From positions 124,001-188,000 of the forward strand of contig NZ_CP014600.1 in NCBI RefSeq assembly GCF_001687105.1: DNA of 64,000 bases, in the 5' to 3' direction. The stretch's first letter is position 1; every line of letters starts with the position of its first letter. Source of the DNA: Salipiger sp. CCB-MM3. GTDB taxonomy: Bacteria > Pseudomonadota > Alphaproteobacteria > Rhodobacterales > Rhodobacteraceae. Shown here in pieces: positions 6,920 to 59,061 of this stretch. Below the pieces are notes generated by a model. It made no database searches and was not told the DNA's origin. It saw nothing but the letters and a program-made list of their open reading frames with translations. The position numbers and the translations under genes were made by a program.

Positions 6920-6922
6920 GCC

Positions 6923-8395: not shown

Positions 8396-8419
8396 GCGCG
8401 TCCCGGTGACACCTCGCAG

Positions 8420-8454
8420 GCGGGGCCATGGCAATGCCATAGCCCCGCTTTCTG
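8420..8454 (+). terminator. Intrinsic terminator after the catabolic operon
   Basis: GCGGGGC pairs with GCCCCGC, and an inner ATGGC/GCCAT stem closes on an AAT loop. The hairpin runs from 8420 to 8448 and is followed by TTTCTGTT on the plus strand. It sits 25 bases after the stop of the semialdehyde dehydrogenase gene and closes the plus-strand operon. Confidence 0.85.
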
Positions 8455-8728
8455 TTCAGGCTGCCCGAGGTTACGGCCCGAGCGAATGGGCCCGTCGCGG
8501 CTCAAACTATGGTGGGAGTGAAATCCTCGCGTTTAGAGCGGGCAGGGCGGCGCGTTGGTAGATCATTCCCTGATTGAGTACTCACGAGAGGCTCTAGTGT
8601 AGGTCGCCCCACGAGGTCGGAAGTGCAAAGCATGTCTCTCGCGCGCTCGATCGGGAATCCTGGAGAGCCTACTGGGCAGCTGGCGACCAACTTCTCGGGT
8701 ATTTTCGGCCCGGTGAAGGTCAGCTCAC
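8455..8728. other. Intergenic spacer, no gene recognised
   Basis: About 270 bases lie between the terminator and the stop of the minus-strand amidase gene. Short open frames exist on both strands but none resembles a known family or has a convincing ribosome-binding site. I see no further repeat or RNA structure here. Confidence 0.5.
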
Positions 8729-10102: not shown

Positions 10103-10144
10103 GATCGTTCCATTGCTAGGAGGAAGGGCGGCGCGCATGTTGCG

Positions 10145-31334: not shown

Positions 31335-31344
31335 TGGTCTCGCC

Positions 31345-32823: not shown

Positions 32824-32825
32824 TG

Positions 32826-34505: not shown

Positions 34506-34523
34506 TCTTTTCCTTCCTGACGA

Positions 34524-36026: not shown

Positions 36027-36029
36027 TTG

Positions 36030-37157
36030 TTACTCCACGCTTGAAATCTTGGTTGCGACTGCGCCACGGATCTCGGCGAGATCGTTGGCGAACGGGTAAT
36101 CGTGTTCGATGGTCAGACGGGCCAGCTGTCCGGCGCGGTCTTGGTCGAGGCTGCCCTCGGGAATGAGATCGACGAACATCGGGCGACCGGAGGTGTCTGC
36201 CGCCGCGGCCGACAAGGAGGCCTCGTCCGCATGAGTGGTGACCGACGAGCCATCTGCAAAGCGGGCCTTGATGCCGCGCGCTTCGGCGAGTGTGTAAAGC
36301 TGGTCGGGCTCGACGCGCACCTTGAGGATCAAAGGCGCATCCGCCGGGGAAATCTGAAGGACGGGTTGACCGGCCTGCACCGTTGCGCCGAGTTCCGGAC
36401 CGGCAGAGACAGCGGTGCAGTCATCGCAAGGCATCGCGACAGAAAGCGTCTCGCCAGAGGTTGCGCGGATCGAAAAGGCGACCTCGCCCATCGCGGCTTC
36501 GGTATCGAGATAATCAATCTGGCCAGCATCAATCGCCGTCAGCGCGCGGCCCGCCGTTTCGACCCGCGCCGGGGCGGTGATATGATCGACAAGGAAGCGA
36601 TCGTGCACCAGCCATGCCGCCCCACCGACCAGCGCAACGGTCGCCGCAGTGACCAGCAGGCCGTTTGCAATGGTCCGGAACACGCTGCCGCCGCTGCTGT
36701 TGGCCTGCTTGCCCCCCTTCCCCGCTTTCGGCGGCTGAAGAGCGACCCCCAGAACACGCCCCATCGAGATCACGTCGCCCGCGATGTAGGAGTTCAGCAC
36801 GTGCCGCAGCTGCGGCAGATGGGGCCCGGTCGGATCGGTAAACGTCACCTCGATCTCACCGTTGCCCGGCGCGATATCCGTGATGCGCCCTTCGACCGCG
36901 ATGGCCAACTGGAAAGCTTCGAAGGGAAACGAGAGGCGCAGCAGCCGTTCGTGACCCACAAGGTTCGGATCCGCCAGTCCGCTCAGCTTGACCCCGGCCA
37001 GCGAGACGCCTTCACCTTGGTACTGCCGTCCATCGATCTCTGCCGTGAAGGGAAGCTCCATCATCGGATGATCCCCGGGCAGGCTCGTTGCTGGCATATC
37101 CTTCGGGCGACCGGTGCCCCCGTCGATATGGTTGGCTTCTGCGTGTGTTATGGACAT
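36030..37157 (-). CDS. alg44: Alg44-like co-polymerase with degenerate PilZ domain
   Basis: A 375-residue inner-membrane protein. It has an N-terminal PilZ-like domain (about 30-125), one membrane helix near 165-190 and a periplasmic HlyD-like region. The linker RHVLNSYIAGDVISMG matches Alg44 well. In Pseudomonas, c-di-GMP binds RxxxR and DxSxxG residues; here the first motif is absent (DHPMMELPF) and the second reads GVSLAG, lacking the Asp. The protein should still partner Alg8 in polymerisation and export, but activation by c-di-GMP is doubtful. Confidence 0.83.
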   Translation of the reverse strand: MSITHAEANHIDGGTGRPKDMPATSLPGDHPMMELPFTAEIDGRQYQGEGVSLAGVKLSGLADPNLVGHERLLRLSFPFEAFQLAIAVEGRITDIAPGNGEIEVTFTDPTGPHLPQLRHVLNSYIAGDVISMGRVLGVALQPPKAGKGGKQANSSGGSVFRTIANGLLVTAATVALVGGAAWLVHDRFLVDHITAPARVETAGRALTAIDAGQIDYLDTEAAMGEVAFSIRATSGETLSVAMPCDDCTAVSAGPELGATVQAGQPVLQISPADAPLILKVRVEPDQLYTLAEARGIKARFADGSSVTTHADEASLSAAAADTSGRPMFVDLIPEGSLDQDRAGQLARLTIEHDYPFANDLAEIRGAVATKISSVE

Positions 37158-37213
37158 GGTGGGTTCTCCCTTTGCGGGCTACGACAATTGGATTTCTGAG
37201 ATTTATGGGGCGC

Positions 37214-38701
37214 TCAGCGTATGACGCCGGAGAGGTACAGGGTGGCGAGGGCGAGCCAGCCCAGAGCCAGAGAGTGAACGAAGGTCGAAGAGTGGACCCT
37301 GATCCGCTGTCCGAGGGGAAGACGGGCCGCTTTCGCCGCGGCGCCTCCCGGCTGGCGGGTCCATTTCTGGCGGTCGAGCCTGAACAAGATGTAGCTCTTG
37401 ACGGTCGCTCCGAAGACTTGGCTGAACCAGAGCAGGAAGGGATAGGTGATGGGGAACCCGGGTTCGCGGACCAGCGAGAGGATCCAGCAGAACACGTAGC
37501 GGGTGAACAAGACCCAAGCGATGTAAGCGGGCAGGACCATCACGTCGACAAAGAGCGTTCCCCAGATCACGGAGAGCGGTCCCGCGATCGTCGTCCAGAT
37601 GCCCAAGCGCTGATCCAGAAGCGCCCATTTCGTGTAGTACCCGATGGTCGAGGTGCTCAGAGCCAAGGCCCGGCCATTCGTCCGCAGCATATTTCCGAAC
37701 CAGCGCACCATCAGGGTTATCGCGCTATCCATAAAGCCGGGCTTGGGCTGGCTTTCCATCGAGACCGAGGCGACATCCGGCAGGTAGCGCATCAGATATC
37801 CGTTCGAGAGCAGCCAGAACCACGTGGATTTGTCATCACCGGTCAGGAACTTAACTGTGCCAAGGCGCCAATGCTCGATGCTGTCCGACTGCACTTGGGC
37901 GATGAAGCCGGGATCGGTCAGCAGATCGGCGCGGAACACCGACATACGCCCGGTCAAGGTCAGCACCCGCCCCGAAAGACCCTGAGACGACATCATCATC
38001 TGCCGTTGCGAGAAGCGGAGATTGTACCAGTCGCGGAAGAGGCCAGGCTCCGGCGTCTCTGCGATCTCGTCGGTCGTCAGGGCACCGACACGGGGATCGG
38101 TGAAGAACGGGGCCGAGGTTTCGACGATATCGACCGGAACACAAGTGTCACCATCTGCCACCACCACGATGTCGTGACGGGTCGGGCTCATCCGGGAGAT
38201 AAGACGATAGGAGCGCGCGAGAGCATCGCGTTTGCCGGTCCCCGGGATCCGGTCGAGGTGCAGTTGGACGCGCGACAGATCGACGTCCTGCGGCATCAGA
38301 TCCCAGATCTTCCTGATCAGGGTCTCATCGGCCAGATCGACAATCGAAACCACGATCGTTGCGCCACCTCGCGACGCAGCCGCCGCCCGGAAGATTGATC
38401 TGTAGACGCGTGCCGTCACATCTGCTTCGATCTTGAAGGACGTCACCAGAAAATAGGCATGCGCCGGTGCCGGCAGCGCGGCGTAGTTTCGCTCCGCCCG
38501 CGCCCGGAGGCGCGGGAAGGCGTAGTTCAGATAGATCGCTGCGCGAGTGAAATTCACCGCCGCCCAGCTGTAGCGCCAAATGCCGATCAGACCGACCACC
38601 ACGAGGCCTTTTGAAACGGAACTGATATCGGCACTAAGCACAAGAAGGCTCAACCAAACCAAAACCGCGAGGTAGGTTAAATGCGCAGCGATCCGGGCCA
38701 T
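37214..38701 (-). CDS. alg8: Alg8 mannuronan synthase, family 2 glycosyltransferase
   Basis: A 495-residue inner-membrane glycosyltransferase, the same length as Pseudomonas Alg8. It has two N-terminal membrane segments, a GT-A core with VVVADGDT near residue 145, the TGDDKSTWF acceptor/base motif near 290 and several C-terminal membrane helices. It polymerises GDP-mannuronate. The ATG at 38701 (MARIAAHL) is preferred over 38731, which would overlap algD by 29 bases. Confidence 0.92.
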   Translation of the reverse strand: MARIAAHLTYLAVLVWLSLLVLSADISSVSKGLVVVGLIGIWRYSWAAVNFTRAAIYLNYAFPRLRARAERNYAALPAPAHAYFLVTSFKIEADVTARVYRSIFRAAAASRGGATIVVSIVDLADETLIRKIWDLMPQDVDLSRVQLHLDRIPGTGKRDALARSYRLISRMSPTRHDIVVVADGDTCVPVDIVETSAPFFTDPRVGALTTDEIAETPEPGLFRDWYNLRFSQRQMMMSSQGLSGRVLTLTGRMSVFRADLLTDPGFIAQVQSDSIEHWRLGTVKFLTGDDKSTWFWLLSNGYLMRYLPDVASVSMESQPKPGFMDSAITLMVRWFGNMLRTNGRALALSTSTIGYYTKWALLDQRLGIWTTIAGPLSVIWGTLFVDVMVLPAYIAWVLFTRYVFCWILSLVREPGFPITYPFLLWFSQVFGATVKSYILFRLDRQKWTRQPGGAAAKAARLPLGQRIRVHSSTFVHSLALGWLALATLYLSGVIR

Positions 38702-38702
38702 C

Positions 38703-40022
38703 TTACCAGCAGATCCCCTCGTAGGTGCCATTGGACCGGGCCTTGGCCGAGATCCGGGTCAGATCGACCATCGGACGCGTTCCCATCGCCGTTTCCAGAG
38801 GGACAATCGTTTCGGCATATTTGTTGCCGACAAGGATGATATCGCTGCTCGCGATCAGATCATCGATGCTGCCGACCATCTTGTCTTTCAGGTCCAGACC
38901 GTAGTCATTGCCGCGGCCGGCTGCCGAGTGATTGTTCTGATAGGCTTCGTTGACGAACGGGTCGTAGACCGCGATCTCTTTGCCCTCTCCCAGAAGCTTG
39001 GACGCCAGCGTGGCCAGCGGGCTTTCGCGAAGGTCGTCGGTACCCGGCTTGAAGCTGATCCCGACCATGCCGACCTTTTTGGCCCCGCTTTTCTCGATCA
39101 TCTGCTCGGCGCGTTTGATCTGAGCCTCGTTCGCCTCCAGAACGGCGTCGAGGATCGGCGTTTCGAGCCCTTTGGCATCGCCCAGTGCACGCAGCGCACG
39201 GACGTCCTTCGGCAGGCAGGAGCCGCCAAAAGCAAAGCCGGGGCGCATGAAATAGGGGCTCATCGCAGCTTTGTTGTCGGAGCACAGGATTTTCATCACC
39301 AATTGCCCGTCGATATCGTTCGCTTTTGCGATATTCCCGATTTCGTTGGCGTAAGAGACTTTCACGGCACGCCAGGAATTCGAGGTGTATTTCACCATCT
39401 CAGCGGTGCGCAGATCGACAGAATTGATCGACCCTTTGATATCCTTGTTCAGGGCGGTCAGGAATGCACCCGTCACCTTGTCCAGAGATCCAAAGACGAT
39501 CAGTCCGGGCTCTTTGTGATCTTCAATCGCGGTGGACTCACGCAGGAATTCTGGGTAGTAGCCGACACCGAAATCCACACCCGCCTTCATTCCTGATGCC
39601 GCCTCGAGGGTCGGAATGCAGGTGCCCTCCATCGAGCCCGGCACGATAGTCGAACGCATGATGACCGAGTACCATGTGTCTTGCGCTTTGATCGCTTCGC
39701 CCAGCTGGCTGCAGGCCGCTTTCACATAGTCCAGACCGACCGAACCATCGGAAGCCGACGGGGTTCCGACGCAAACGAAGCACGCTTCGGTCTTTGCGAC
39801 AGCTTCGGCGATGGAGGTCGTGGCGACGAGTTTGCCAGCGGCCGCGACCTCGGCGATCAGTTCCGGCAGGCCCTCTTCAACGATCGGCGACATGCCGGCA
39901 TTGATGGCGTCAACCTTGCCCGGATCGACGTCGACGGCGACAACATTGTGGCCGTCGCGTGCTAGACACGCGGCCGAGACTGCCCCGACATACCCAATTC
40001 CGATTACTGCGATGTTTGCCAT
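38703..40022 (-). CDS. algD: GDP-mannose 6-dehydrogenase AlgD
   Basis: A 439-residue UDP/GDP-sugar dehydrogenase. It has the NAD fold motif IAVIGIGYVGAVSAACLA at residues 4-21, the AlgD-type segment EFLRESTAIEDH and the catalytic Cys269 in GGSCLPKDV, within one residue of the Pseudomonas position. It makes GDP-mannuronate, the committed step of alginate synthesis. It is the first gene of the 12-gene minus-strand operon, with a 330-base upstream region carrying a set of inverted repeats and bounded by a terminator. Confidence 0.95.
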   Translation of the reverse strand: MANIAVIGIGYVGAVSAACLARDGHNVVAVDVDPGKVDAINAGMSPIVEEGLPELIAEVAAAGKLVATTSIAEAVAKTEACFVCVGTPSASDGSVGLDYVKAACSQLGEAIKAQDTWYSVIMRSTIVPGSMEGTCIPTLEAASGMKAGVDFGVGYYPEFLRESTAIEDHKEPGLIVFGSLDKVTGAFLTALNKDIKGSINSVDLRTAEMVKYTSNSWRAVKVSYANEIGNIAKANDIDGQLVMKILCSDNKAAMSPYFMRPGFAFGGSCLPKDVRALRALGDAKGLETPILDAVLEANEAQIKRAEQMIEKSGAKKVGMVGISFKPGTDDLRESPLATLASKLLGEGKEIAVYDPFVNEAYQNNHSAAGRGNDYGLDLKDKMVGSIDDLIASSDIILVGNKYAETIVPLETAMGTRPMVDLTRISAKARSNGTYEGICW

Positions 40023-40204
40023 TCGGCATTCCTTTCAGGGTTTGTGCAGGTCCGAATCGGCCGCGTCTTCTGGCTCTTCGAACACTGTTCCATCACGCTT
40101 TGGCGCCCCGAGAAGGTCAGCGGCATTTCGCCACACGCCTTCACGTTACAAGACCCAACTTATAATTGCTGCAGGTGCGAAACAGTCGGGATAACCCCTT
40201 TCGG

Positions 40205-40290
40205 TGTCAGGATTCTGCTGAATTTGCGTAGTGAAAAACCCCACAAATCTTCTATTTTCCTGACAGTTACACCTCCTCTTGTCAGGAAAA
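40205..40290. promoter_or_regulatory. Three TGTCAGGA half-sites upstream of algD
   Basis: TGTCAGGA occurs at 40205-40212 and 40280-40287 on the plus strand and at 40258-40265 on the minus strand. The last two form an 11-bp perfect inverted repeat (TTTTCCTGACA at 40255-40265 with TGTCAGGAAAA at 40280-40290) separated by 14 bases. No T-tract follows and the site is 180-270 bases upstream of algD, so an operator is more likely than a terminator. Confidence 0.55.
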
Positions 40291-40353
40291 ACCCTAGGCG
40301 GGAACTATCCCAGATCTCGCGCGTTAGTGTGATTTCTTCTGTCTTTCGGGCAC

Positions 40354-40376
40354 AAAAAAAGGCGCCGATGGCGCCT
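40354..40376 (-). terminator. Intrinsic terminator of the LuxR-type regulator gene
   Basis: On the minus strand AGGCGCC, loop ATC, GGCGCCT is followed directly by a run of seven T. It lies about 35 bases after the regulator stop and separates it from the algD promoter region. Confidence 0.9.
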
Positions 40377-40410
40377 CCCCGAAGTTTACGATTTTTGTTG
40401 ACTTATAGCT

Positions 40411-41124
40411 CTACTGCTGGATCACCCAACCTGACTGAAGCGCGTAGCCCACGATATCTTTTCGCGTGCGCAAGCCAAGTTTCGAAGCGCCCCTGGCCTT
40501 GTAGGTCTCCACGGTCTTGGAAGACAGGTCCAGTTCGTGACCAATTTCCTTCATACTCTTGCCGAAGGCGACGGCGCGCAGCACAAACGCTTCTCTTTCG
40601 GTGAGCTCTGCCTCCAGCGGGATTTTTCGGACGCGGTCGATGAGGGTCTGTTCCTCGGTGGCTCCATGAGACGCATGGAGGAGCGCTTCCGCGAACCCTT
40701 GTTCGACGTGCACCAACCCATGGCGCACCGAGGCAACCGCGATCTTGACCACTTGCAGGTCGACCTGCTTCGACACGACGCCGCTAAAGCCCAGCGTCAG
40801 CAAAGACCGCACCATGTCTTGGTCATTCACATCGGTCGCGCTGCAATAGGCGATGTATCTTGGTTTTTTTGATAACCCCGCGTCAATTATCTCGAGCGCG
40901 GCTTCGAGTTGATCGCCGAACTGGCACGGATCAATAATAATGAGGTCCGTTTCAGGTGCGATGTCCGCCGCAACGAGATCAGCCAGCATAGACTGGCCTG
41001 TAGAAACTGTAAGCGCCTTCGCGGCGACGCTGCCGTCTTCTTGTAACAACATTGAGACCCCGGCAACCAATACCGGGTTTGTGTCCATAATGAGCACATT
41101 ATGGACCGCACTATATCCGTTCAT
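40411..41124 (-). CDS. LuxR/NarL-type response regulator
   Basis: A 237-residue protein with an N-terminal receiver-like domain and a C-terminal LuxR-type helix-turn-helix. The receiver shows Asp in VLIMDTNP, the candidate phospho-Asp in DLIIIDPCQFG and the Lys in GVVSKQ. The output domain reads LTEREAFVLRAVAFGKSMKEIGHELDLSSKTVETYKARGASKLGLRTR. I chose the ATG at 41124 with AGAGG upstream; a TTG at 41145 is possible. Its neighbours are the algD operon and the RTX protein gene on the same strand, so it may control one or both. No sensor kinase lies nearby. Confidence 0.88.
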   Translation of the reverse strand: MNGYSAVHNVLIMDTNPVLVAGVSMLLQEDGSVAAKALTVSTGQSMLADLVAADIAPETDLIIIDPCQFGDQLEAALEIIDAGLSKKPRYIAYCSATDVNDQDMVRSLLTLGFSGVVSKQVDLQVVKIAVASVRHGLVHVEQGFAEALLHASHGATEEQTLIDRVRKIPLEAELTEREAFVLRAVAFGKSMKEIGHELDLSSKTVETYKARGASKLGLRTRKDIVGYALQSGWVIQQ

Positions 41125-41145
41125 GTACAGAGTAACCTCTAACAA

Positions 41146-41511
41146 AAGGTGAAAATCGGTCAGAAATCGTCAAAAACTTGTCGTATACCGCAGGAGGCAC
41201 GATCTGATCTCGCAGGTGCAGAAATCAAGCAACGAATTCAAGAAACCGCATCACACAAGTGTTAAACGAAGGTTAAAGCACCGAACTTGCTAAAAACTCT
41301 TCCTATGGTTGTTTTTCGATTATTTCGGAAATCATGGGCAGACGGTGGGCACACCCCCCAATTTTGCCTTTTATTTGCTCATTTCACACCCTCTTCGGGG
41401 ACAGCCCCCCCCGCGTCACGGATGATTTTCGCTCTCCAAGTGGCACGCCCCACACAGCAGGACACCACAACGGTCAGCGCCGAAAGAAGCACAGGTCTTC
41501 CGGCACCGAGG
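41146..41511. other. Intergenic region upstream of the regulator gene
   Basis: This stretch, relatively AT-rich near 41150-41340, should contain the promoter of the LuxR-type gene. I see no convincing gene. A short direct similarity GTTAAACGAAGGTTAAAGCA near 41260 could be a binding site but is weak. Confidence 0.4.
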
Positions 41512-41543
41512 TCAGGCGTACAGCAGAGCCGCTGTACGCCTGA
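41512..41543 (-). terminator. Hairpin after the RTX protein gene
   Basis: TCAGGCGTACAGC (41512-41524) pairs perfectly with GCTGTACGCCTGA (41531-41543) around a 6-base loop. It lies 5 bases after the stop of the RTX gene. There is no T-tract, so it may act as a 3' stabiliser as much as a terminator. Confidence 0.65.
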
Positions 41544-41548
41544 GCCTG

Positions 41549-44317
41549 TTAGCCGAGGTCGTACCAGTCGGCGACATTTTCGAGGGTCACGTCCTCCAAG
41601 TAGAGGCTCCCGGCATCAGACGTGATTGCCAGGCCGTCGTTCGACACCTCGAACTGGAAAACATTGCTCTCTTCGCCGGTTTCATACCAATCGTGAAGAC
41701 TGGAGAGGATCTGGCTATCTGTCTGACCTGAAAAGTAAAAAACGTCACCCTCACCTGCATCGAAGTCAGTGAGAACATTTTTTCCCTCAATCAGGACAAA
41801 TTTGTCGGAACCATGTCCGCCGGTGAGCGTAGAGTTTCCAGAGCCGCCATTGAGCTTGTCGTCGCCGCCGCCCCCAACAACCGTATCGTTACCAGCGTTG
41901 CCGTAAATGGTGTCGTTTCCCGATCCGCCAAGAAGGTAATCGTCACCGTTATTGCCCCGCAGGTTGTCGGCACCCTCCCCACCAAGGAGGGTGTCGTCTC
42001 CATTTTTGCCCTGTCCACGGTCGTCACCAGCACCGAGATCAATCCACGAGGAGACACCGGACGAAGACACTTTGTCGTCGCCAGCAAGAGCCCGCACAAC
42101 TGTCTGATCCTCGTTGGCGACCAGCTTGTCGGCTCCATCCGTACCCGTGAGCTCGAGTCCCGACACCGCGCCAGAGATGAGATCGAGGCTGTCTGCCGCG
42201 TCTTCGGACGGCGTATCAATGACATCTGCGACTTCGGGCTCGCTCGTCGTAGCCAGCTCATCCTCAGAAGACTTAGACGTCGCTTCGCTCTTCTCGGCAC
42301 TCGCATTGATCAGCGCTGCCAAGTCACCCGACACGCGATACACGGTGCCGTCGACCTCAACGAATTCGACGCGATCCTTGAGCAGGACAGATCCAGTCTC
42401 GTACTCGATCAGGGTTCCGTCCGAGGTTTCGTCGACCAAAAGCGATCCCAAATCCGACGCGATGGACACCGTGTCGTTGCCATAACCGCCCAGCACCGTG
42501 TCGTTGCCAGCAGATGCCACGAAACGGTCGTGCCCGGAGCCAAGGTCGACATGGTCGTCGCCTGCCCCACCGATGACCGTATCGGGTCCGCTTTGCGCGT
42601 CGACCTCGGTCGCCGCACCGGAAAGCACCAAAGTATCTCGGCTCGAGGTTCCGTTGATGTAGGTGACAGCCCCCTCATCTGGCGCTGCGACTGACTCTTC
42701 TACCGCGGTGTCGTCGCTTTCGCTTTTGCCAGTTTCGACGTCGCCTGACTCGACCGGCTGCGTTTCGTGATCATCCTCTTCGGCGTTAGCATCCTCTGCT
42801 GCTGCGTCGTCGTTCGCCGCATCTTCGGTGACCGCGGCGCCACCTGTCGCGCCGTCCGACGACCACCCGCCATTTGCGATCAACCAATCAAGATCATCGG
42901 ATAGCGAATAGGTCTTGCCGCCAAGCTGAAGCACCTCGATGCCATCGAGAAAGCTCGTGCCCCCCGCATGTGCGATCGCAACACCCGAGCCCGTGGAGGA
43001 TACGGAAATGTCGGCAATGCTGGCGTCAAAGATCACCGTATCGGTGCCGGAATTGCCGATCAGCGTGTCGTCGCCGTCGGAGCCATAGATCACATCTGTG
43101 CCGGTCCCCATGTCGATCCAGTCGTCGCCAGCGCCGCCCGTGACCGTGTCCGCGCTGCCGTACATATACGCGACACCGCCGGCGTCGGTCAGTTCGATCT
43201 CTTCCGCGCGGACCGACCCCTCCACATTCGTGAAGAGCGCGGTATTCGCGTCACGATCGGTGGGCGCGCCATAGCTTTTCCCGCCGTCGTTGACGAAGTA
43301 GGTCAGACCGAGCGCGCGTTGTTCTGCTTCGGTATCCCGAATGGAGCTGTCCACGATCACGGTGTTGTCCGTGTCGAGGCCACCGTGAAAATTGATGTCG
43401 CGGTTGGTGTAGGAGACGTGAACCGTATTTCCCGATGCCGACGTATAGGACGCGAACAGCACCGCATGGCGCGTGTCAGTGATCGTCAGATCGCTGAACA
43501 CACTGTCATAGACATCTCGGATCCACACGCCATAGCCGTTTCCGTCAGACCCTTTGTTATGGGAGCCCTCGATGGTCAGACCGTCAATGTCGGCCTCGAC
43601 AGACTTGGCGATGACCAGACCACTCGATCCCGGCTCGGTCATGGAGACGTTGCTCAGCGAGAACCCCGAAGATGTGTTCACGAGGATCATCATCCCGTCA
43701 TCTTCAGCCGAGATCGTATTCGAAAAATCGGTCGGGTCGGAGGTTCCATAGTCCCCCACCAAAGACAGGTTCTGGATCGTCACATCATCGACCGTATCGA
43801 CGCGCTGAACCGTGGCTGAGCTGTCGAAGTCGAAATCAAGCGCGTTGTCGAAACCGACCTTCTTTCCGTCCACAGAGGTGATCGTCACCATCTGCGTCCG
43901 AAGGTCTTTGTTGTCCTTCTGCCAAGCGGTGTCACCGATTTCATCGTACAACGCGTCGTCATTGGGCATGGTAATCCAGATCACGTCCCCAACCTGAAGA
44001 TCATGATCGGCTGTCGCCAGCGTAAGGGAGTTCGCCCCCTTCGACGCGGAAGACACCGACACCTCGGCGCCAAGGTCCTCATTGAACAGGTCATCTCCGA
44101 CTTGAAACGCCGGGTCTCCCTCCATTGAGGCATCCAAAGTGATGACGGTGCCGCCAGCGGCATCGCCCTGAATCGTCACCCCATCAGTGGAGATCTCCAC
44201 CGTCGACGTGAACCTGTACTCGCCAGCCGCAAGTTGGATCACCGTACCTTCAGACGCTGAGTCCACTGCTCGCTGGATTTCGGCGGAGGAAGCCCCCGCC
44301 TTAATTTTTATGACCAT
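41549..44317 (-). CDS. Secreted parallel beta-helix protein with RTX calcium-binding repeats
   Basis: A 922-residue acidic protein. Residues 1 to ~390 form a pectate-lyase-like right-handed beta-helix that begins AGASSAEIQRAVDSASEGTV, as in secreted beta-helix enzymes. Three RTX blocks follow (GGAGDDWIDMG near 395, GGAGDDHVDLGSGHD near 600 and a longer array near 760-860), joined by Glu/Asp-rich linkers. It has no N-terminal signal peptide, which fits type I secretion through a C-terminal signal. The architecture recalls Azotobacter AlgE-type extracellular epimerases, and its location beside alginate-type genes makes a polymer-modifying or polymer-binding role plausible. No T1SS genes are visible here. 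Confidence 0.8.
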   Translation of the reverse strand: MVIKIKAGASSAEIQRAVDSASEGTVIQLAAGEYRFTSTVEISTDGVTIQGDAAGGTVITLDASMEGDPAFQVGDDLFNEDLGAEVSVSSASKGANSLTLATADHDLQVGDVIWITMPNDDALYDEIGDTAWQKDNKDLRTQMVTITSVDGKKVGFDNALDFDFDSSATVQRVDTVDDVTIQNLSLVGDYGTSDPTDFSNTISAEDDGMMILVNTSSGFSLSNVSMTEPGSSGLVIAKSVEADIDGLTIEGSHNKGSDGNGYGVWIRDVYDSVFSDLTITDTRHAVLFASYTSASGNTVHVSYTNRDINFHGGLDTDNTVIVDSSIRDTEAEQRALGLTYFVNDGGKSYGAPTDRDANTALFTNVEGSVRAEEIELTDAGGVAYMYGSADTVTGGAGDDWIDMGTGTDVIYGSDGDDTLIGNSGTDTVIFDASIADISVSSTGSGVAIAHAGGTSFLDGIEVLQLGGKTYSLSDDLDWLIANGGWSSDGATGGAAVTEDAANDDAAAEDANAEEDDHETQPVESGDVETGKSESDDTAVEESVAAPDEGAVTYINGTSSRDTLVLSGAATEVDAQSGPDTVIGGAGDDHVDLGSGHDRFVASAGNDTVLGGYGNDTVSIASDLGSLLVDETSDGTLIEYETGSVLLKDRVEFVEVDGTVYRVSGDLAALINASAEKSEATSKSSEDELATTSEPEVADVIDTPSEDAADSLDLISGAVSGLELTGTDGADKLVANEDQTVVRALAGDDKVSSSGVSSWIDLGAGDDRGQGKNGDDTLLGGEGADNLRGNNGDDYLLGGSGNDTIYGNAGNDTVVGGGGDDKLNGGSGNSTLTGGHGSDKFVLIEGKNVLTDFDAGEGDVFYFSGQTDSQILSSLHDWYETGEESNVFQFEVSNDGLAITSDAGSLYLEDVTLENVADWYDLG

Positions 44318-45190
44318 AGCCTCTATAATCCTTAGTCGTGAGGGTTCTAGGGGGTGGTCTTCGCTCGCCTCCGAGCTAGCACACAAAAAATGGGAAATTT
44401 ATGTTCCAGCCGTGACAAATATCGTTGAAAGTATGGTTGACGGCGGATTTATGCCTTGATCGCGAGATACTGCGCCCTATCCGCGCCAAGCCAAAACTCA
44501 CGCACATCCTAAATTTTCAGCAACTCATCTGCAGCTCGGGCGTCTTGATGAAGGTCATCTACTGGATGCGACGTTGCAGGCTCAGCACATGGGCTGGGCC
44601 CCGCGGATCTTGGGCCTGACGACTGGCTCTATCGGATTAGCAAATTCCGGGTCCAAACTGGCGGCCGAGCGGAGTGATGATACCTGGGAGAAGCTTCAAC
44701 CGCCCGCCTGCTCGCTGCGCGCAAGAGGTCCCGGCGCAAAACCCAATTCGACGCAGCAAAAAAGCCGTCTGACAATACCCTACCCCGCCCTGGAGTCGCA
44801 TAAGCGCCATTGAGTTGCTTGGGAAGCAGCGGGCATCTCAAGAATTGTTATTCTGGGCGCCCTCGCCCTTCATCGTTAGATAATCTTTACGCCGCCGCAA
44901 GGCCGCTTCTTGCGCCACTTGCTCTCGCTCGTTCGCGTGATTGCTACGAATGTTTCGGCGGGTGCAAGCCCGAAGTTGAAGCCGCTCGCGCGGCAATGGC
45001 GCGTGTGGCCTTACCTCGGGACTGATTGCCAACTACGTGCGGCGAGGTACACTTCAGGCGGATGCCTAGACCCCGAAGGGCCCAGTTCCGACGCGACTAT
45101 GCCAGTCGAGGAGCTACACTGGAAGCGGCACTGCTGGGAGAGATCCCGATGTTGCACGCCAAGGACGACCACGACCCGCCCAGACTCCCG
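44318..45190. other. Gene-poor region, probable mobile-element debris
   Basis: Nearly 900 bases hold only short open frames on both strands, none with a recognisable family or a ribosome-binding site. Base composition is mixed. The presence of an IS3 relic at its right end suggests deletion and insertion scars. The promoter of the RTX gene must lie in its left part. Confidence 0.4.
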
Positions 45191-45199
45191 ATAACTGTG

Positions 45200-45406
45200 T
45201 CTCTGCGCGCGATCCACCCCGAGGCCGAGCTTCCGCTGCAAGTGCCGCACCGCATCGGCCATCGACAGGCCCTGGCCATGCAGCACCTCGACCTGACGCA
45301 GCTTGGTGACAATGTCTTCCGGCTTCTCTCGCTTTCCAGCCATTGTGTAGTCCTCCTGTTCGCCGAAATCCTATTGGATTTCAGGCTTCGTGGGTGGACC
45401 ACTTCA
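45200..45406 (-). pseudogene. Truncated IS3-family orfA with left inverted repeat
   Basis: On the minus strand a GGAGGAC site precedes MAGKREKPEDIVTKLRQVEV, the start of an IS3-family OrfA helix-turn-helix protein. Similarity stops after about 35 residues (MADAVR), where the reading frame continues into unrelated sequence. TGAAGTGGTCCACCC at 45392-45406 matches an IS3-type terminal repeat. No orfB is present, so only the left end of the element remains. Confidence 0.7.
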
Positions 45407-45540: not shown

Positions 45541-46371
45541 CTAAACTGGGAGACGCGCATGCATTTCAATCGGCGCGATCAACCCGCCTTGGATGTTTCG
45601 AACCATATGCTGGACCTTGAGGGCGGTATCATCACCCATGACCAGATGCAGGCCCAAGGGTGGAGGGCCGCCCGCACGGGCTTGTGCAGCAGCAAGATCT
45701 GCAAAGAACTGTTTGGCGAATTCAGTGCGATCGATGCGGTCCGTGACCTCGAAACCAACGGTTTTCAAAGCAGCCTCATATGTCTCTGGTGATGCAAGCG
45801 CGCTCTGTGCCGCGGAAGACGCCCAAGGCGTTGGATAGTCCATGGTCCCCTCTCCGACTTGCATCACGTCATAGATCGCAAAGACGCCGCCGGGTTTGAG
45901 CACGCGCTTCGTCTCCCGCGCGAGCCCGACTTTGTCCGCGATGTTCATCCCCACATGGATCATATAAGCGGCATCCACCGAGCCGGCATCGAGCGGCAAG
46001 TCCAGGATGCTGCCTTCGATGAGGTGCACCCGATCAGAAAGGCCCGTCCATTCCGTGAGCGCACGCCCGGTTTCCACAAACTCAGCCGTCAGATCGATGC
46101 CGGTGACATGGGCGCCGGTGGTGGCGGCCACGAAGCGTGCCGGACCTCCAAGCCCACACCCGAGATCGACAACCCGACTGTCAGGGGACAGGTTCAAAGC
46201 CTGCACAAAAGGTGTCGTGGCGAGCCGCCCGCCAATATGAAACTCGTCTACCGGCGCCAAGGCGTCCCGAGACATCGGCGGCGCCAGATCGAGCGCTGTG
46301 CAAGCGTCAGAAATTCTCTTGAGCAGGTGTCCGGTTTGGTAATGGTCCGAGACGCTAGCTGGATCGGTCAT
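45541..46371 (-). CDS. Class I SAM-dependent methyltransferase
   Basis: A 276-residue methyltransferase with the SAM-binding motif VVDLGCGLGGPARF at residues 67-80 and the acidic loop TGIDLTAEFV near 92. The style resembles small-molecule methyltransferases such as tocopherol/sarcosine types rather than protein methyltransferases. AGAGGGC lies just before the start. It is on the same strand as, and 237 bases after, the RiPP kinase gene, but a hairpin lies between them. It may tailor the RiPP or be unrelated. Confidence 0.85.
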   Translation of the reverse strand: MTDPASVSDHYQTGHLLKRISDACTALDLAPPMSRDALAPVDEFHIGGRLATTPFVQALNLSPDSRVVDLGCGLGGPARFVAATTGAHVTGIDLTAEFVETGRALTEWTGLSDRVHLIEGSILDLPLDAGSVDAAYMIHVGMNIADKVGLARETKRVLKPGGVFAIYDVMQVGEGTMDYPTPWASSAAQSALASPETYEAALKTVGFEVTDRIDRTEFAKQFFADLAAAQARAGGPPPLGLHLVMGDDTALKVQHMVRNIQGGLIAPIEMHARLPV

Positions 46372-46528
46372 CTTGAAGCCCTCTAAACAATACGGGCAGG
46401 TTACACATGGCGACCCGAAGTGTCAGCCTGTCTGAAACCCTAGCTGACCAAGGGTGTATGCTGATTGATGCACCTTGCGCCGCAGATGTTCGATCGCTCT
46501 CTACATCGTGCCGAGAACGCAATTTAAG

Positions 46529-46560
46529 AGCGCCTGAACGGCTTCCTCCGTTCAGGCGCT
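46529..46560 (-). terminator. Hairpin terminator after the RiPP kinase gene
   Basis: AGCGCCTGAACGG (46529-46541) pairs perfectly with CCGTTCAGGCGCT (46548-46560) around a 6-base loop. On the minus strand it is followed by CTTAAATT, a weak T-tract. It lies about 50 bases after the kinase stop. Confidence 0.7.
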
Positions 46561-46608
46561 GGCTTGCGGCCCGGGCCGCTTCATCCGCTCGGGTCATGTC
46601 CGGAACAG

Positions 46609-48195
46609 TCAGGCGAGTTCTGGCTCACGCAGGATCATATCCTGCGCCTCTTTCCACAATTTTTCCCGGACTCGCCGCACAATCGCGGACTCGCGCTTCG
46701 GAAGCGTGGGCACCGGAAGAGTGACGCGCTCGTAATCCGAAAGCACGGCGTGCGCCTCTGCTGCCTCTGGCCGTTTGAGTGGATCGGCGTCCATCAACCG
46801 TAGCACGAGATCGCGCACGTGGAGAGGAACACCCTTGCGCAGCGTGCCGACGGGCGGCCGCGTGACCACCCGCTCGGGCGTGAGATCGGCGGGCTCGTCA
46901 CGGTGCATGAGCCAAGAGGTCAGCAATTGATGGATCGTCGCACCGAGGCCGAACAAATCCTCCGGCACATGTGATCCGGTTACCGGGCCCTCGTGAATCT
47001 CGGGCGGCATGTAGCTGGGGGTCCCCCACGGGATCTGCGTCGTCGCGGTGCTGCGGATCGCCCCTTCGAAATCGACGGGGCGCAGTCGTCCGGTCTCCTC
47101 CACGAGAATGTTCGCCGGTTTCAGATCCCGCCAGACCCAGCCCGCGCTGTGTAATGCGGCCACCAAGCTCGCCGTGCCCGCGGCATAGGCTAGGGCGACA
47201 TCGAGGGGCAATTTGCGCGTAGGGTCCGAGCAGGCCTGCAAAAGAGGCGCGCCCTTGATGTGCTCGATCACCAAGTAGCGGTGGCGGTCTATCACAAAGC
47301 TGTCGAGCACCGCGGGGCTCGCACAGTCGGACCCTTCTAGGTGGCGCAGAACCATCTCCTCGCGTTCGACGAGGGTCCGACCATCCGAGCCTGTCCAATC
47401 CGTTTCGCCATGCCGGCGCCCCTCCTTCACGACGCAGAGCCGAGCGGGCGCGCACTTGATGTCCACCGCGCGATAGACGCCACCCTTGCCGCGCTGCATC
47501 ATGGCCTCGTAGCAAAGGTAGTCCGTTTGCAGTTTCGTACCGAGCGTGACCGCTCGCCTGTCGCCCGGGAATGGGTTCCGCGCCCAGTCTGGCGCGGCCT
47601 TTCCCGGTTCCCGCAGGTCTGGCACCAGAACGCCTTGCGGATCGCGGATCGCGCCAACCATAGAGCCGTCTTCCAGTTCCATTTCCTGCGCGCTGAAGGC
47701 GCCATAGCGGTAATGTACGGAACTTCCAGGCATGTAACATTCGTCGAACGGGACAGCGGGAGCCTCAAAGTCCTTGGTGAGATCATGCAGCAGCGCCGCA
47801 AGCTCAACCGCCTGCTCTGGCCCGCGCGGGTAGACAGTTATGAACTTTCCGATCTGGCTGAAGCCAAACGGGATCGCGCTGTTCAGCCGCGCGAGGATCC
47901 GCAGCGATTTCACGGATTTGAAATAGACGCCCCGCTCTGCCAGCACTGGCGCGCAACGCCGAAAGACCTCGATTGCCGTTGGCACTGTCGCCGAGACGTG
48001 AAGCTTCCAGCCCTGACTTGGGTAATCCGCGCGATCCACGCGTCTATAGCGCCATCCGCTTTCGCGGGGCACAACCGGCAGAAACTCCTCGACTAGGTCA
48101 CGCCAGGCCGCTTCGCGCTCTTTCGCCAGGTCGTCCTTGGAAGCCAGAACGGGTGACACGGGGACATCGACCCTCTGCATAAGAGAATGCTCCAT
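46609..48195 (-). CDS. LanKC-like lanthipeptide synthetase: lyase and kinase domains, no cyclase
   Basis: A 528-residue protein matching the first two thirds of class III (LanKC) lanthipeptide synthetases. The N-terminal phospho-Ser/Thr lyase-like domain includes GWKLHVSATV, FKSVKSLRILARLNS, SQIGKFITVYP and PGSSVHYRYGAF (about 55-175). The Ser/Thr kinase domain shows WRDLKPANIL (catalytic Asp357), VDFEGA (Asp375) and a PPE segment. Full LanKC proteins are about 850 residues with a C-terminal LanC-like cyclase, absent here. It would phosphorylate and eliminate Ser/Thr of the adjacent precursors to give dehydro residues. The start could be 48195 or, with a better ribosome site, 48180. Confidence 0.85.
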   Translation of the reverse strand: MEHSLMQRVDVPVSPVLASKDDLAKEREAAWRDLVEEFLPVVPRESGWRYRRVDRADYPSQGWKLHVSATVPTAIEVFRRCAPVLAERGVYFKSVKSLRILARLNSAIPFGFSQIGKFITVYPRGPEQAVELAALLHDLTKDFEAPAVPFDECYMPGSSVHYRYGAFSAQEMELEDGSMVGAIRDPQGVLVPDLREPGKAAPDWARNPFPGDRRAVTLGTKLQTDYLCYEAMMQRGKGGVYRAVDIKCAPARLCVVKEGRRHGETDWTGSDGRTLVEREEMVLRHLEGSDCASPAVLDSFVIDRHRYLVIEHIKGAPLLQACSDPTRKLPLDVALAYAAGTASLVAALHSAGWVWRDLKPANILVEETGRLRPVDFEGAIRSTATTQIPWGTPSYMPPEIHEGPVTGSHVPEDLFGLGATIHQLLTSWLMHRDEPADLTPERVVTRPPVGTLRKGVPLHVRDLVLRLMDADPLKRPEAAEAHAVLSDYERVTLPVPTLPKRESAIVRRVREKLWKEAQDMILREPELA

Positions 48196-48220
48196 TGAAA
48201 TTTGTCGGAGTGCGTTTCCC

Positions 48221-48240
48221 TCCCCGGTGCTGACCGGGGA
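48221..48240 (-). promoter_or_regulatory. Hairpin between precursor and kinase genes
   Basis: TCCCCGGT (48221-48228) and ACCGGGGA (48233-48240) form a perfect 8-bp stem with a 4-base loop. It lies in the spacer between the second precursor and the kinase start, with no T-tract. Such hairpins often raise precursor mRNA over downstream enzyme mRNA. Confidence 0.55.
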
Positions 48241-48309
48241 GCTTAGTTGAATTTGGTAATTCGGAGGCGTCGATCCCCGTGGCAGGCACGGGAAGCGACG
48301 CCGTGCCGG

Positions 48310-48585
48310 TCACGCCGACGTTGTTGTCGTCGTCGTCGTACAGAGTGGCGTGCTTGTCGTAATCACCGTGCGGCTGTGACACGTGCAGGCTGCCGCGCCT
48401 TCGGCACCGGCAGACATCGACTGCAATTCTTCCGGTGACGCCGCGAATTGGGAAAAATAGTCTTTCCACTCGTCGCTCCCTGCCCCAGCGTGAATAGCTC
48501 TAATTGCTTGATCCCGCAAATTTCCGGCAAAATCAGAGTCCGATATCGCCTTTTGGACGATTTCTTGAGTTTTGTTATTCACCAC
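48310..48585 (-). CDS. RiPP precursor peptide, second copy
   Basis: A 91-residue peptide starting at GTG 48585, chosen because GGAGG lies 9 bases upstream and because the product then aligns with the sister peptide from its first residues (NNKTQEIVQKAISDSDF against NHPEFVQKMLNDPDY). The leader is helical and acidic for about 66 residues. The C-terminal 25 residues, starting at Cys67 after AEGAAA, hold 3 Cys (67, 69, 82), 12 Thr and 3 Ser, with a run of seven Thr near the end. The composition fits dehydration by the adjacent kinase-lyase. The longer frame to 48642 is unlikely. Confidence 0.8.
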   Translation of the reverse strand: MVNNKTQEIVQKAISDSDFAGNLRDQAIRAIHAGAGSDEWKDYFSQFAASPEELQSMSAGAEGAAACTCHSRTVITTSTPLCTTTTTTTSA

Positions 48586-48696
48586 GATAGTACTCCTCCA
48601 CTTCAGCAATTCCTCCCGAAATTGCCGATCCAAAATTGACACGATCCTCCGAGACGGCTATTTCCATTTCGAAAAATCTGATAATCATGCTGCGTG

Positions 48697-48981
48697 TCAG
48701 CCGGACCCAGTTGTGGTCGTTCCCGTGCAGATCGGGCTGGTCGTGGTGGTGACTGTCGTACTGTTGCATGTACAGGCTGCGGCAGCGCTTGAACTCGCGC
48801 CAAGAGACCGAAGTTTCTGTGGATCCGTTGCCAATCCAGCGAAGTGATCCCCGCCGAAAAAAGCCTTCCAAGCATCGCTGTGCTGCCCACCGACGACCGC
48901 ATCCACCGCTTGTTTTCGCAGATTTTCGGCATAATCTGGGTCGTTGAGCATTTTTTGGACAAATTCAGGATGATTTGCCAT
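48697..48981 (-). CDS. RiPP precursor peptide, first copy
   Basis: A 94-residue peptide starting 7 bases after GGGAGGG. Residues 1-69 form a leader (FVQKMLNDPDYAENLRKQAV...DPQKLRSLG) ending in an Ala run. Residues 70-94 are the likely core, with Cys70, Cys72, Cys85, 12 Thr and 3 Ser. The core shares the pattern CTCxSxTVxTTxxPxCTxTTTT with the second copy while the leader has diverged, as in precursor families. The leader's DPDY/DP..L character is reminiscent of NHLP/Nif11-type leaders, but this is uncertain. It is the first gene of the locus. Confidence 0.85.
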   Translation of the reverse strand: MANHPEFVQKMLNDPDYAENLRKQAVDAVVGGQHSDAWKAFFGGDHFAGLATDPQKLRSLGASSSAAAACTCNSTTVTTTTSPICTGTTTTGSG

Positions 48982-49500
48982 ATTTATTCCCTCCCAAAAA
49001 CTAAAATGAGAAAAAGGTAACTCAGATAACTTGAAGTTCTAATTTGGTATCACAACCCTCTAGATATTAAAAGCGATTCTATAACAACCTAAACATGCGC
49101 TTCATTCCTAAGGGGAAGCCGCGCAAATTCTTAAAATTACAAACCCTATTTCAGGGACAGAGTGTTTCTCTACCATTGACTGGATTTATTGAGTCACGCA
49201 GCGAGATGTTTGGGGAGAGCACCAGATTTTCCATGCGGTTTTACCCATGTGCCCCTCCCCGTAACGCAGATCGCAGCGGGGGTCCGGAGTAATCCACCGG
49301 GGAGTTTGGAAGGTCCTCCGCAGTCACTCTTGGGCGCTGCGTCGAGCAGGCCCTCTCCCCGAAGTGCCGTTCTGCGGCAGGTGCAGCCCCGTTGACCTTT
49401 CGATGCTACTGCTGATTTATCTCGCGCGGCGGAACGCTGCGGATGCGCGTGTGGCCGTCCATGTCGCGACCTCCAACCTCGCCGCCAGTAGGGAACACAC
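48982..49500. other. AT-rich divergent promoter region, RiPP locus and cupin gene
   Basis: About 520 bases without a recognisable gene. The left 200 bases are clearly AT-richer than surrounding genes and must hold the promoter of the precursor genes on the minus strand. The right part should hold the cupin promoter on the plus strand. A 65-codon frame at 49095-49292 resembles nothing I know. Confidence 0.45.
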
Positions 49501-57600: not shown

Positions 57601-58082
57601 GCCGGGCTCCATGCATCGGACCAATAGCCGAAGTCCGGCCCGGCGCAGAGCCCCGGTGCCTTGCCGAAACTGAGGGACTTCCAGCCGAGCGCGTAGGGGT
57701 AGTTGATCATCTTCGCACCATCGTCCTCGGGGTCTGCGGTGCCGGTGAACAGCGCCTCAGTCAGCCATTGCAGCTGCGCCTCGCGGTCTGCATCCTCCTG
57801 CGGCTCGAGCAATGGCGCGATGCCCGCCTGCGCGGCATGGGCCGACAGCACGTCCACAGCCGCCGCGCCGAATTTCGCCTCGAAAAGCGCGGTGACACTG
57901 TCCAAAAGCTGCGGCGCGACGCTGACCGGCCCGGCGAGCGCGTAGAGGATCGAGCGGAACACGGCCCGGTCACGCCCGCTATTGAGCGACGCCGCCAGCG
58001 CGCCGCCGGGCAGCGCGGCCATGGCCGCAAGGCTGACGCCGCCGCTCAGCACGGCGCGGCGGGTCTTCGGAGCGGGGCTCAT
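57597..58082 (-). CDS. Tat-exported small subunit of GMC dehydrogenase
   Basis: A 161-residue protein with a twin-arginine-style signal (TRRAVLSGGVSLAAMAALPGG) and the style of gluconate/sorbitol dehydrogenase small subunits (GMC subunit 3), including MINYPYALGWKSLSFGKAPGLCAG near the end. It likely escorts the folded FAD subunit to the periplasm. It overlaps both neighbours by ATGA. Confidence 0.75.
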   Translation of the reverse strand: MSPAPKTRRAVLSGGVSLAAMAALPGGALAASLNSGRDRAVFRSILYALAGPVSVAPQLLDSVTALFEAKFGAAAVDVLSAHAAQAGIAPLLEPQEDADREAQLQWLTEALFTGTADPEDDGAKMINYPYALGWKSLSFGKAPGLCAGPDFGYWSDAWSPA

Positions 58083-58771
58083 GGCGCAGAGACCACGACG
58101 AAGCCGCGCGAGCGGTTAGAGCCGCTGTCGGTCATCATCATGCCCGCGTGCAGCGTCTCGACCGTCACCCAGACCGGCGGGTATTTGTACTTGGCCACAT
58201 CGAGGATCAGCACGCTGTCGGTGTCCTCGTCATAGGCTGCGACCGGCGAGATATGCCCGTCGCCTTCCTGCGGCAGCGCCTTGCGCGAGTAGTTCGCGAT
58301 AAAGCGCGCGCCTTGATCCAAAAGCGTTGTTTTGATCGCCTCGCGCAACGCCTCCACCGAGGTCTCGTCGGCGAAATGGTGTTCGGCGGTCATCCCGAGG
58401 TTCTCGATGAACGTGTCGAGCTCGGCCAGCGTCAGCCCCTCATGTTCGACCATGGCGTAGGGCTTCAGCTTCTGATTGGCCTCGTTGAACAGCGTGTCCT
58501 GCGTGAACAAGGCCCACGGATAGAGCCTGTCCGGCGAAGGCCGAGAAATATCGAGAGAATTGGCCACCGCCGCCACGGTGGCGGGGCCGCAAAATGTGAG
58601 GATTTGTTCATACTCGAGATAGGAGGCGAGCGGGAAGTAATCGCGGTTTATCGAGGTCGCCAGCAGCCGGTCCTCGCCTTCGGTGCTGGTCAGATAGACG
58701 AGGTCCTCGGCCATCACCGGCCCGGCGAGGGCAAGGCCCAGCAAGGCGGCGGTCAGTTTGCGCTGAACCAT
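58079..58771 (-). CDS. Exported phytochelatin synthase-like cysteine peptidase
   Basis: A 230-residue protein with a signal peptide (LTAALLGLALAGPVMA) and a complete phytochelatin-synthase triad: Cys61 in LTFCGPATVAA, His173 in DGHISPVAAY and Asp191 in LILDVAKYKYPPVW. Spacing is close to that of the cyanobacterial half-size enzymes. Those enzymes cleave Gly from glutathione and, in eukaryotes, make metal-binding phytochelatins. A periplasmic copy among redox enzymes suggests peptide or thiol processing, possibly metal-related. Its start overlaps the cytochrome gene. Confidence 0.85.
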   Translation of the reverse strand: MVQRKLTAALLGLALAGPVMAEDLVYLTSTEGEDRLLATSINRDYFPLASYLEYEQILTFCGPATVAAVANSLDISRPSPDRLYPWALFTQDTLFNEANQKLKPYAMVEHEGLTLAELDTFIENLGMTAEHHFADETSVEALREAIKTTLLDQGARFIANYSRKALPQEGDGHISPVAAYDEDTDSVLILDVAKYKYPPVWVTVETLHAGMMMTDSGSNRSRGFVVVSAP

Positions 58772-59061
58772 TTTGCGATCTCCTCGATGTCGCTGTCGGA
58801 AAGCTCTTTGGCATAGATGCCCATGACATCTGCCATGCCGCCCTTGCGGTAGCCTGAGCGGTAGGATTTCAGCGCGCTCTGCAGGTAGTCCTCGCGCTGT
58901 CCGGCAAGGATCGGCACCCCGGCCACCAGCGGATTGCCGTCAGCGGCATGGCAGGACACGCAGGGAGAAACGCTGGCGGGCACCGCTGGGGCATCGTCGG
59001 CGAGCGCGGCGCAGGGCGCGAGCAGCGCGAGGGCCGCAAGATCAAGCCTGAATGGCAACAT
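58753..59061 (-). CDS. Small periplasmic cytochrome c
   Basis: A 102-residue protein with a signal peptide and one heme site, CVSCH (Cys34, Cys37, His38), and a likely axial Met in KGGMADVMG near residue 78. It resembles cytochrome c553/class I proteins. It would pass electrons from the GMC dehydrogenase or to the multicopper oxidase. It overlaps both neighbouring genes. Confidence 0.88.
   Translation of the reverse strand: MLPFRLDLAALALLAPCAALADDAPAVPASVSPCVSCHAADGNPLVAGVPILAGQREDYLQSALKSYRSGYRKGGMADVMGIYAKELSDSDIEEIAKWFSAN

Follow-up and report, generated by a model that had tools for sequence, protein, structure and literature searches.

Genes and precursor peptides of the locus

The locus described here occupies positions 45541 to 48981 of a 64,000-nt stretch of the genome of Salipiger sp. 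CCB-MM3 (hereafter the window) and comprises four genes, all on the minus strand: two small peptide genes (alpha and beta), the gene of a lyase-kinase that lacks a cyclase domain, and that of an S-adenosylmethionine (SAM) methyltransferase. The open reading frames (ORFs) bore out this arrangement, which had been proposed from the sequence alone (the original prediction) together with the interpretation of the region as a ribosomally synthesized and post-translationally modified peptide (RiPP) locus. Precursor alpha (48697 to 48981) is a 94-aa peptide encoded from an ATG start with GGGAGGG ahead of it; residues 1-69 form the leader and residues 70-94 the core, whose 25 codons (48700 to 48774) read C-T-C-N-S ... 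T-S-P-I-C ... G-S-G and include 12 Thr, 3 Ser, and 3 Cys. Precursor beta (48310 to 48585) is most probably translated from a GTG near 48585 that has GGAGG ahead of it, giving a peptide of ~91 aa; its database copy (P0121) is 91 aa in length. The 25-codon core of beta (48313 to 48387) reads C-T-C-H-S-R ... S-T-P-L-C followed by seven Thr, and likewise includes 12 Thr, 3 Ser, and 3 Cys. The lyase-kinase (46609 to 48195) is 528 aa in length, or 523 aa if started at the ATG at 48180, with a RamC_N lyase domain at residues 44-212, a Ser/Thr kinase domain at residues 252-481, and no LanC domain.

As originally proposed, the two peptides are paralogues (52% identity) with variable leaders and a shared Cys/Thr-rich core. 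An alpha/beta profile search at E ≤ 10 returned 17 proteins, including the window's own beta, with the weakest at E 2.7e-23, and the aligned set, the window's two included, consisted of nine alpha and nine beta sequences (n = 18); the eight aligned alpha homologues showed 61-74% identity. In all 18 sequences the core counted from the first Cys is 25 residues long and contains three Cys, the leader contains no Cys at all, and 14 to 17 of the 25 core residues are Thr or Ser. Mean identity of the core (two preceding Ala included) was 0.91 within alpha and 0.94 within beta, as compared to 0.59 and 0.57 for the respective leaders. The usual RiPP pattern is the opposite of this, and such constancy of the core beside a changing leader suggests a single conserved target or partner. 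When the window was compared with a second genome (G705, see below), the 27-codon alpha block differed by 14 synonymous and no non-synonymous changes, and the 27-codon beta block by 20 synonymous and 2 non-synonymous changes; these comparisons show purifying selection on the precursor cores. The Os1348 NHLP-clan model NF038399 matched 13 of the 18 precursors at E ≤ 1 (best E 3.5e-05), Nif11 was touched weakly by a few of them, and a sequence search of the PDB with the precursors returned only transaldolases, at E 1.4 and worse.

A lyase-kinase without a cyclase domain

The domain search with Pfam identified RamC_N (E 3.9e-42) and Pkinase (E 1e-19) in the enzyme and gave no match to LanC, in agreement with the lyase-kinase without cyclase that had been predicted. 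Among NCBIfam models, class IV LanL (NF038150) matched from residue 44 with 340.8 bits against a cut-off of 650 (E 1.9e-101), covering only profile positions 5-460 of 851, and class III LanKC matched with 255 bits, which is also below the cut-off and also confined to the first half of the model. Both scores fall below their cut-offs because the cyclase part is absent. As far as these profile scores go, the enzyme is nearer to class IV LanL than to class III LanKC, and the class III membership assumed earlier is not supported as such, since LanL scores higher than LanKC and LanC is absent. The predicted structure of the enzyme (mean predicted local distance difference test score [pLDDT], 78) was nearest to the synthetases CuvL and ThurKC in a Foldseek search.

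The residues of the ThurKC lyase, whose roles have been described (PMC10604976), were mapped by counting by hand on an alignment to chain 9wop, the numbering of which fits the ThurKC positions. Seven of the eight lyase residues were matched in the window enzyme, namely K65, H67, K94, K117, D152, R163, and R191. Five of these (K65, H67, K94, K117, and R163) are kept in 119 of the 120 best homologues, the remaining one being a fragment (P0030) that was retained in the residue counts as a gap; D152 is kept in 113 and R191 in 118 of the 120. The kinase Lys, the catalytic Asp and Asn, and the DFE motif are kept in all 120. The host genome itself (5.52 Mb in 7 contigs, 100% complete) gave no LANC_like match, and the window enzyme was its single RamC_N match.

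The enzyme also resembles components of defence systems, and we considered whether the locus might make no natural product, the peptides being regulators that are phosphorylated, or else components of a defence or toxin-antitoxin unit, and the lyase domain having another role. The enzyme matches 32 PADLOC models at E ≤ 0.01 (best, PD-T4-6 kinase at E 2.3e-26 and mad6 at 6.2e-26), the adjoining methyltransferase matches mad2 (1.1e-18), and neither an exporter nor a protease was seen in the cassette. Among the 25 PADLOC matches listed, however, the best-matching stretches fall within residues 220-515, in the kinase part, and a defence kinase was rejected as a candidate on this ground. The far stronger LanL match includes the region from residue 44 onward, the phospho-Thr lyase residues are kept, and the conserved part of the peptides is their Thr/Cys end, all of which make a function of this kind very improbable.

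The cassette in a second genome and its distribution

A second copy of the two precursor genes and the enzyme gene was found in genome G705, probably a Stenotrophomonas, which has only the phylum as common rank with the window's genome. There, alpha, beta, and the enzyme (L010 8935-9216, 8574-8852, and 6908-8488) have the same order and strand as in the window, with gaps of 82 and 85 bp as compared to 114 and 114 bp in the window (the latter counted from 48582). The combination of genes goes beyond chance because the profile search returned 17 proteins with none weaker than E 2.7e-23 and because a second genome carries them in identical order. Precursors and modifying enzyme are genetically linked and conserved together in the window and G705, as expected of a RiPP locus, and the G705 trio gives good support to the prediction of such a locus with a cyclase-less lyase-kinase. 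That prediction would have fallen had other genomes held no homologous precursor-kinase pairs; with the G705 pair in hand, it stands. At the G705 cassette, we saw neither a cyclase nor a methyltransferase, protease, or exporter.

The G705 cassette is bracketed by two BOF genes, whose proteins are 66% identical (L010 6423-10182). Further out, one flank carries an AraC-type regulator and an alpha/beta hydrolase, and the other flank citrate synthase. Two relatives have a single BOF gene in that neighbourhood and nothing else matching L010 from ~6720 to 10630, and one of them (G755) additionally has no match to the hydrolase and the AraC-type regulator. The acquired unit probably consisted of the trio, alone or together with one BOF copy, and the two BOF genes of G705, as opposed to one in the two relatives, may reflect a duplication or a co-transfer at insertion.

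Genome scans with the precursor profile gave a loose initial survey: among the matches listed, no more than 17, 13, 58, and 21 candidates per genome were scored for the window's family, its phylum, the genus holding G585 and G705, and the family of that genus, respectively. On this part of the candidates, the window's family (295 genomes) and the phylum (398 genomes) each gave a single genome with precursors, the host genome both times; the genus holding G585 and G705 (91 genomes) and its family (247 genomes) also gave one each, G705 both times. Conserved co-occurrence in Rhodobacteraceae, which had been suggested as a check, was not found in the 295 family genomes. With the enzyme profile at E ≤ 1e-35, 1 of the 398 phylum genomes, again the host genome, was positive (at most three candidates scored per genome among the matches listed), and a contig scan with the enzyme alignment returned one weak Chloroflexi locus. 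The cassette looks rare, with the scattered occurrence that horizontal transfer would produce. We considered a viral or plasmid carrier for the precursors but rejected it, as alpha had no match in plasmids and phages and the precursor alignment none in viral contigs (beta alone was not searched there); enzyme relatives were likewise absent from viral contigs, and 331 plasmid records matched the enzyme, all with <60% identity.

Enzymes of this type are numerous. Of 7994 candidates scored in a search of 5.8 billion proteins, at least 2748 were homologues at E ≤ 0.001, and full synthetases could have surfaced because candidates up to 1.75 times the query length were admitted. The best 120 of the 2748 are 298-547 aa in length, and no LanC domain was listed for any of them. 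A tree of 41 proteins (30 of the 120 homologues, taken as the first 12 and then by a fixed step through the list, and 11 named proteins) separated the eleven closest homologues from the 29 others with support of 100/99. Nine of the ten full-length synthetases grouped together at a distance from the closest homologues, with a cyclase-less Streptococcus salivarius protein among them, and the tenth (Embleya) was an outlier beside the root. Closest homologues and synthetases do not fall strictly on one side of a branch each (2 changes each), and the tree is a sketch, given its long branches and the sampling by similarity. The S. salivarius protein, another cyclase-less RamC_N-kinase of 453 aa, is encoded on plasmid pSsal-NU10 (L037 2374-5264); as a lead only, it has two small genes ahead, one of them with a Ser/Thr/Cys/His stretch near its end, and an ABC transporter gene after it, a different genetic context for a stand-alone lyase-kinase.

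Several precursors and enzymes have longest contigs of equal size: alpha P0130, beta P0136, and enzyme P0011 (104,872); beta P0134 and enzyme P0008 (78,835); beta P0133 and enzyme P0006 (2,260); beta P0128 and the enzyme fragment P0030 (4,964,165); and alpha P0132 and beta P0137 (2,348). Partners with contigs of equal size presumably share one contig, and the four enzymes paired in this way (P0011, P0008, P0006, and P0030) belong to the closest clade.

Proposed modification of the cores

We propose, with a probability of about 60%, that the two precursor genes and the enzyme gene form a three-gene cassette in which the LanC-less enzyme dehydrates the Thr/Ser-rich alpha and beta cores and each peptide then forms a single thioether ring with no cyclase involved. 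The proposal builds on features apparent in the sequences, namely the paired precursors, the enzyme domains, the kept catalytic residues, the lack of a LanC-like match in the host genome, the gene order in the second genome, and the purifying selection on the cores. The predicted course of events is as follows. The helical leader, weakly NHLP/Os1348-like, would dock on the enzyme, the kinase domain would phosphorylate Thr and Ser residues of the core, and the RamC_N lyase domain would eliminate the phosphate to give dehydrobutyrine (Dhb) and dehydroalanine (Dha). A thioether ring would then close at the stretch [ST][ST]PxC, which is present at core position 12 in all 18 precursors. A precedent for this step is rosin A1, in which the lanthionine ring forms non-enzymatically and needs Dha-Dhb-Xxx-Xxx-Cys, the class Va clusters being devoid of LanC (PMC12291118); the S-T-P-L/F-C stretch of beta would yield the same Dha-Dhb order. 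Most of the leftover Thr, above all those of the C-terminal TTTT (alpha) and TTTTTTT (beta) tracts, would stay as Dhb, and host proteins would supply leader removal and export. The fixed pairing suggests that the alpha and beta products act together.

The ring is the step on which an alternative turns, in which modification would end with dehydration and the products would be linear Dhb/Dha-rich peptides, their three Cys serving as thiols, in disulfides, or as metal ligands (C-T-C-H in beta). The lack of a cyclase domain and of a LanC-like gene is in keeping with this, as is the invariant C-T-C at the start of the core, followed by His in nine of the nine beta sequences. Against it, the rosin A1 stretch self-closes once dehydrated (PMC12291118) and all 18 cores hold such a stretch, and we regard linear products as unlikely. 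Alternatively, a separately encoded cyclase of another fold, located elsewhere in the genome, might complete a conventional lanthipeptide. Such an arrangement can work in principle, as the ThurKC lyase-kinase became active again once its cyclase domain was supplied as a separate protein (PMC10604976). The LANC_like search of the host genome was negative, however, and no cyclase adjoins the G705 cassette (LanC was not searched across the whole G705 genome), and a separate cyclase is therefore improbable.

A number of observations weigh against cyclase-free dehydration and ring closure. The eighth lyase residue of ThurKC, K108, is Ala in the window enzyme, and its column in the best 120 homologues holds Gly in 112, Ala in 7, and a gap in 1; in ThurKC this Lys is needed for dehydration (PMC10604976). 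Among eight full-length synthetases, the same column holds Ala or Gly in four, Lys in two, and a gap in two. Moreover, the isolated ThurKC lyase-kinase, without the cyclase domain, left its peptide unmodified both in vitro and in co-expression, an inactivity that the ThurKC authors contrast with other class III and IV enzymes (PMC10604976). The stretch [ST][ST]PxC alone proves little because such motifs recur in shuffled Thr-rich cores (~70% contain [ST][ST]xxC and ~4% contain [ST][ST]PxC), and its conservation depends on that of the whole core and is not separate evidence. The NHLP/Os1348 likeness is weak, with the window beta at 18.4 bits against a cut-off of 40 and the window alpha unmatched. 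The predicted structure of alpha, five short helices, is a poor model of low confidence (mean pLDDT 61) and matched no known fold in a structure search. Finally, no protease or exporter was seen in the cassette, and an unlinked cyclase of a different fold is possible.

Methyltransferase, intergenic features, and surrounding genes

The SAM methyltransferase (45541 to 46371, 276 aa) was found next to the enzyme gene as originally described, 237 bp downstream of it; its assignment to the cassette is not supported, as it was not seen at the G705 cassette. Its relatives at 70-83% identity, in Ruegeria, Marinibacterium, Salipiger, Sulfitobacter, Marivita, and others, carry the plain annotation of a class I methyltransferase. 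At E ≤ 1e-60, the gene was present in 15 of 149 family genomes, the host included; one other genome (G141) has a copy with 78% identity, the remaining 13 have copies with 43-53%, and the only same-genus genome lacks it. G141 is among the 295 genomes searched and has no precursors. A role of this enzyme in the pathway, as a methylase of the peptide, would fit the shared strand, the 237-bp distance, and the patchy occurrence in the family; in view of its plain relatives, its presence in G141 without precursors, and its absence from the G705 cassette, we rejected it as a cassette member and consider such a role highly improbable. The methyltransferase is probably a bystander neighbour outside the cassette, a conclusion that is less certain than the rest because the methyltransferase is also patchy.

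Between beta and the enzyme gene, a GC-rich hairpin with a 9-bp stem and a 4-nt loop lies at 48220 to 48241 on the minus strand. The entire gap (48196-48309) contains two main hairpins and folds far better than its shuffles (z -5.27, 0 of 200 shuffles as good), and the corresponding gap of G705 also has a strong hairpin (whole-gap z -2.47, 3 of 200 as good). This structure may be a point of mRNA processing or attenuation. Scans for promoters and terminators gave results near chance level, and no direct or inverted repeats of ≥18 nt were found around the window cassette. The G+C content is 0.45-0.50 at 48500-49250, covering the alpha gene and its upstream region, as compared to 0.63 for the window. 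The window belongs to contig C6 of the assembly, and RepC was found on contig C5 only.

Just past the methyltransferase is a short ORF (45011-45343) without a Pfam match at E ≤ 0.01, which we take to be a fragment resembling an IS3-type transposase. An alginate-like polysaccharide cluster extends from 30069 to 44386 and includes AlgX, an MBOAT acyltransferase, a NosD-type beta-helix protein, a nucleotidyltransferase, an HlyD-like protein, a glycosyltransferase 2, a UDP-glucose/GDP-mannose dehydrogenase, a LuxR regulator, and a 945-aa RTX beta-helix protein. At 58079-60619 on the minus strand, a phytochelatin synthase gene adjoins that of a multicopper oxidase.

Relation to known systems and significance

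The window enzyme shares with class IV LanL and class III LanKC proteins (CuvL, ThurKC) the order of a RamC_N phospho-Ser/Thr lyase followed by a Ser/Thr kinase with DFE, and with CuvL and ThurKC, the closest solved structures, all lyase residues but one. An N-terminal RamC_N with a central Ser/Thr kinase, as in class III LanKC, is present; the enzyme differs from both classes by the lack of the LanC part, a zinc-binding domain in class IV, and by the replacement of K108. A further difference is the long leader, as the LELQEL motif described for class III (PMC10206099) is absent from both leaders by eye. Class V (rosins; LanK and LanY) likewise combines kinase and lyase without LanC, with substrate control of lanthionine ring formation (PMC12291118), but it uses a separate PF01636 kinase and a HopA1-like lyase (PMC10604976), whereas a single PF25816-PF00069 fusion is found here. 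PF01636 reached only E 0.038, below the cut-off, PF17914 was unmatched, and neither LanD nor LanX was seen in the window cassette. Any likeness to NHLP/Os1348-type precursors is weak: NF038399 matches 13 of the 18 precursors, but the window beta is below the cut-off and the window alpha unmatched.

As in the two-component lanthipeptides roseocin and rodencin, two precursors adjoin one synthetase gene, the differences being that rodencin and roseocin are class II systems and that joint activity of alpha and beta is only predicted here. The Os1348 protein, 85 aa in length, is a precursor accompanied by putative modifying genes of its own (PMC7726476), and NHLP leaders are structured and bound as proteins (PMC12455567). 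Among the matches listed from the PMC literature, outside which most subscription journals lie, none described a stand-alone RamC_N-kinase that works on precursors of this kind.

A large mining study demanded a LanC-like domain for calling a lanthipeptide cluster (PMC7268733), and stand-alone lyase-kinases would be missed because of this requirement. It is a possibility, to which we give slightly less than even odds, that widespread stand-alone, cyclase-free lyase-kinases constitute a sixth lanthipeptide-like class making poly-dehydrobutyrine peptides, represented here by an obligate alpha/beta pair with fixed cores, in a bare three-gene cassette spreading between bacterial classes, with a ring folded without a cyclase. 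Should it dehydrate the core Thr as predicted, the cassette enzyme would be a new cyclase-free variant of the lanthipeptide machinery. If active, stand-alone lyase-kinases would show that the LanC part can be dispensed with, in contrast to the finding for ThurKC, and would represent a minimal enzyme for installing dense Dhb tracts.

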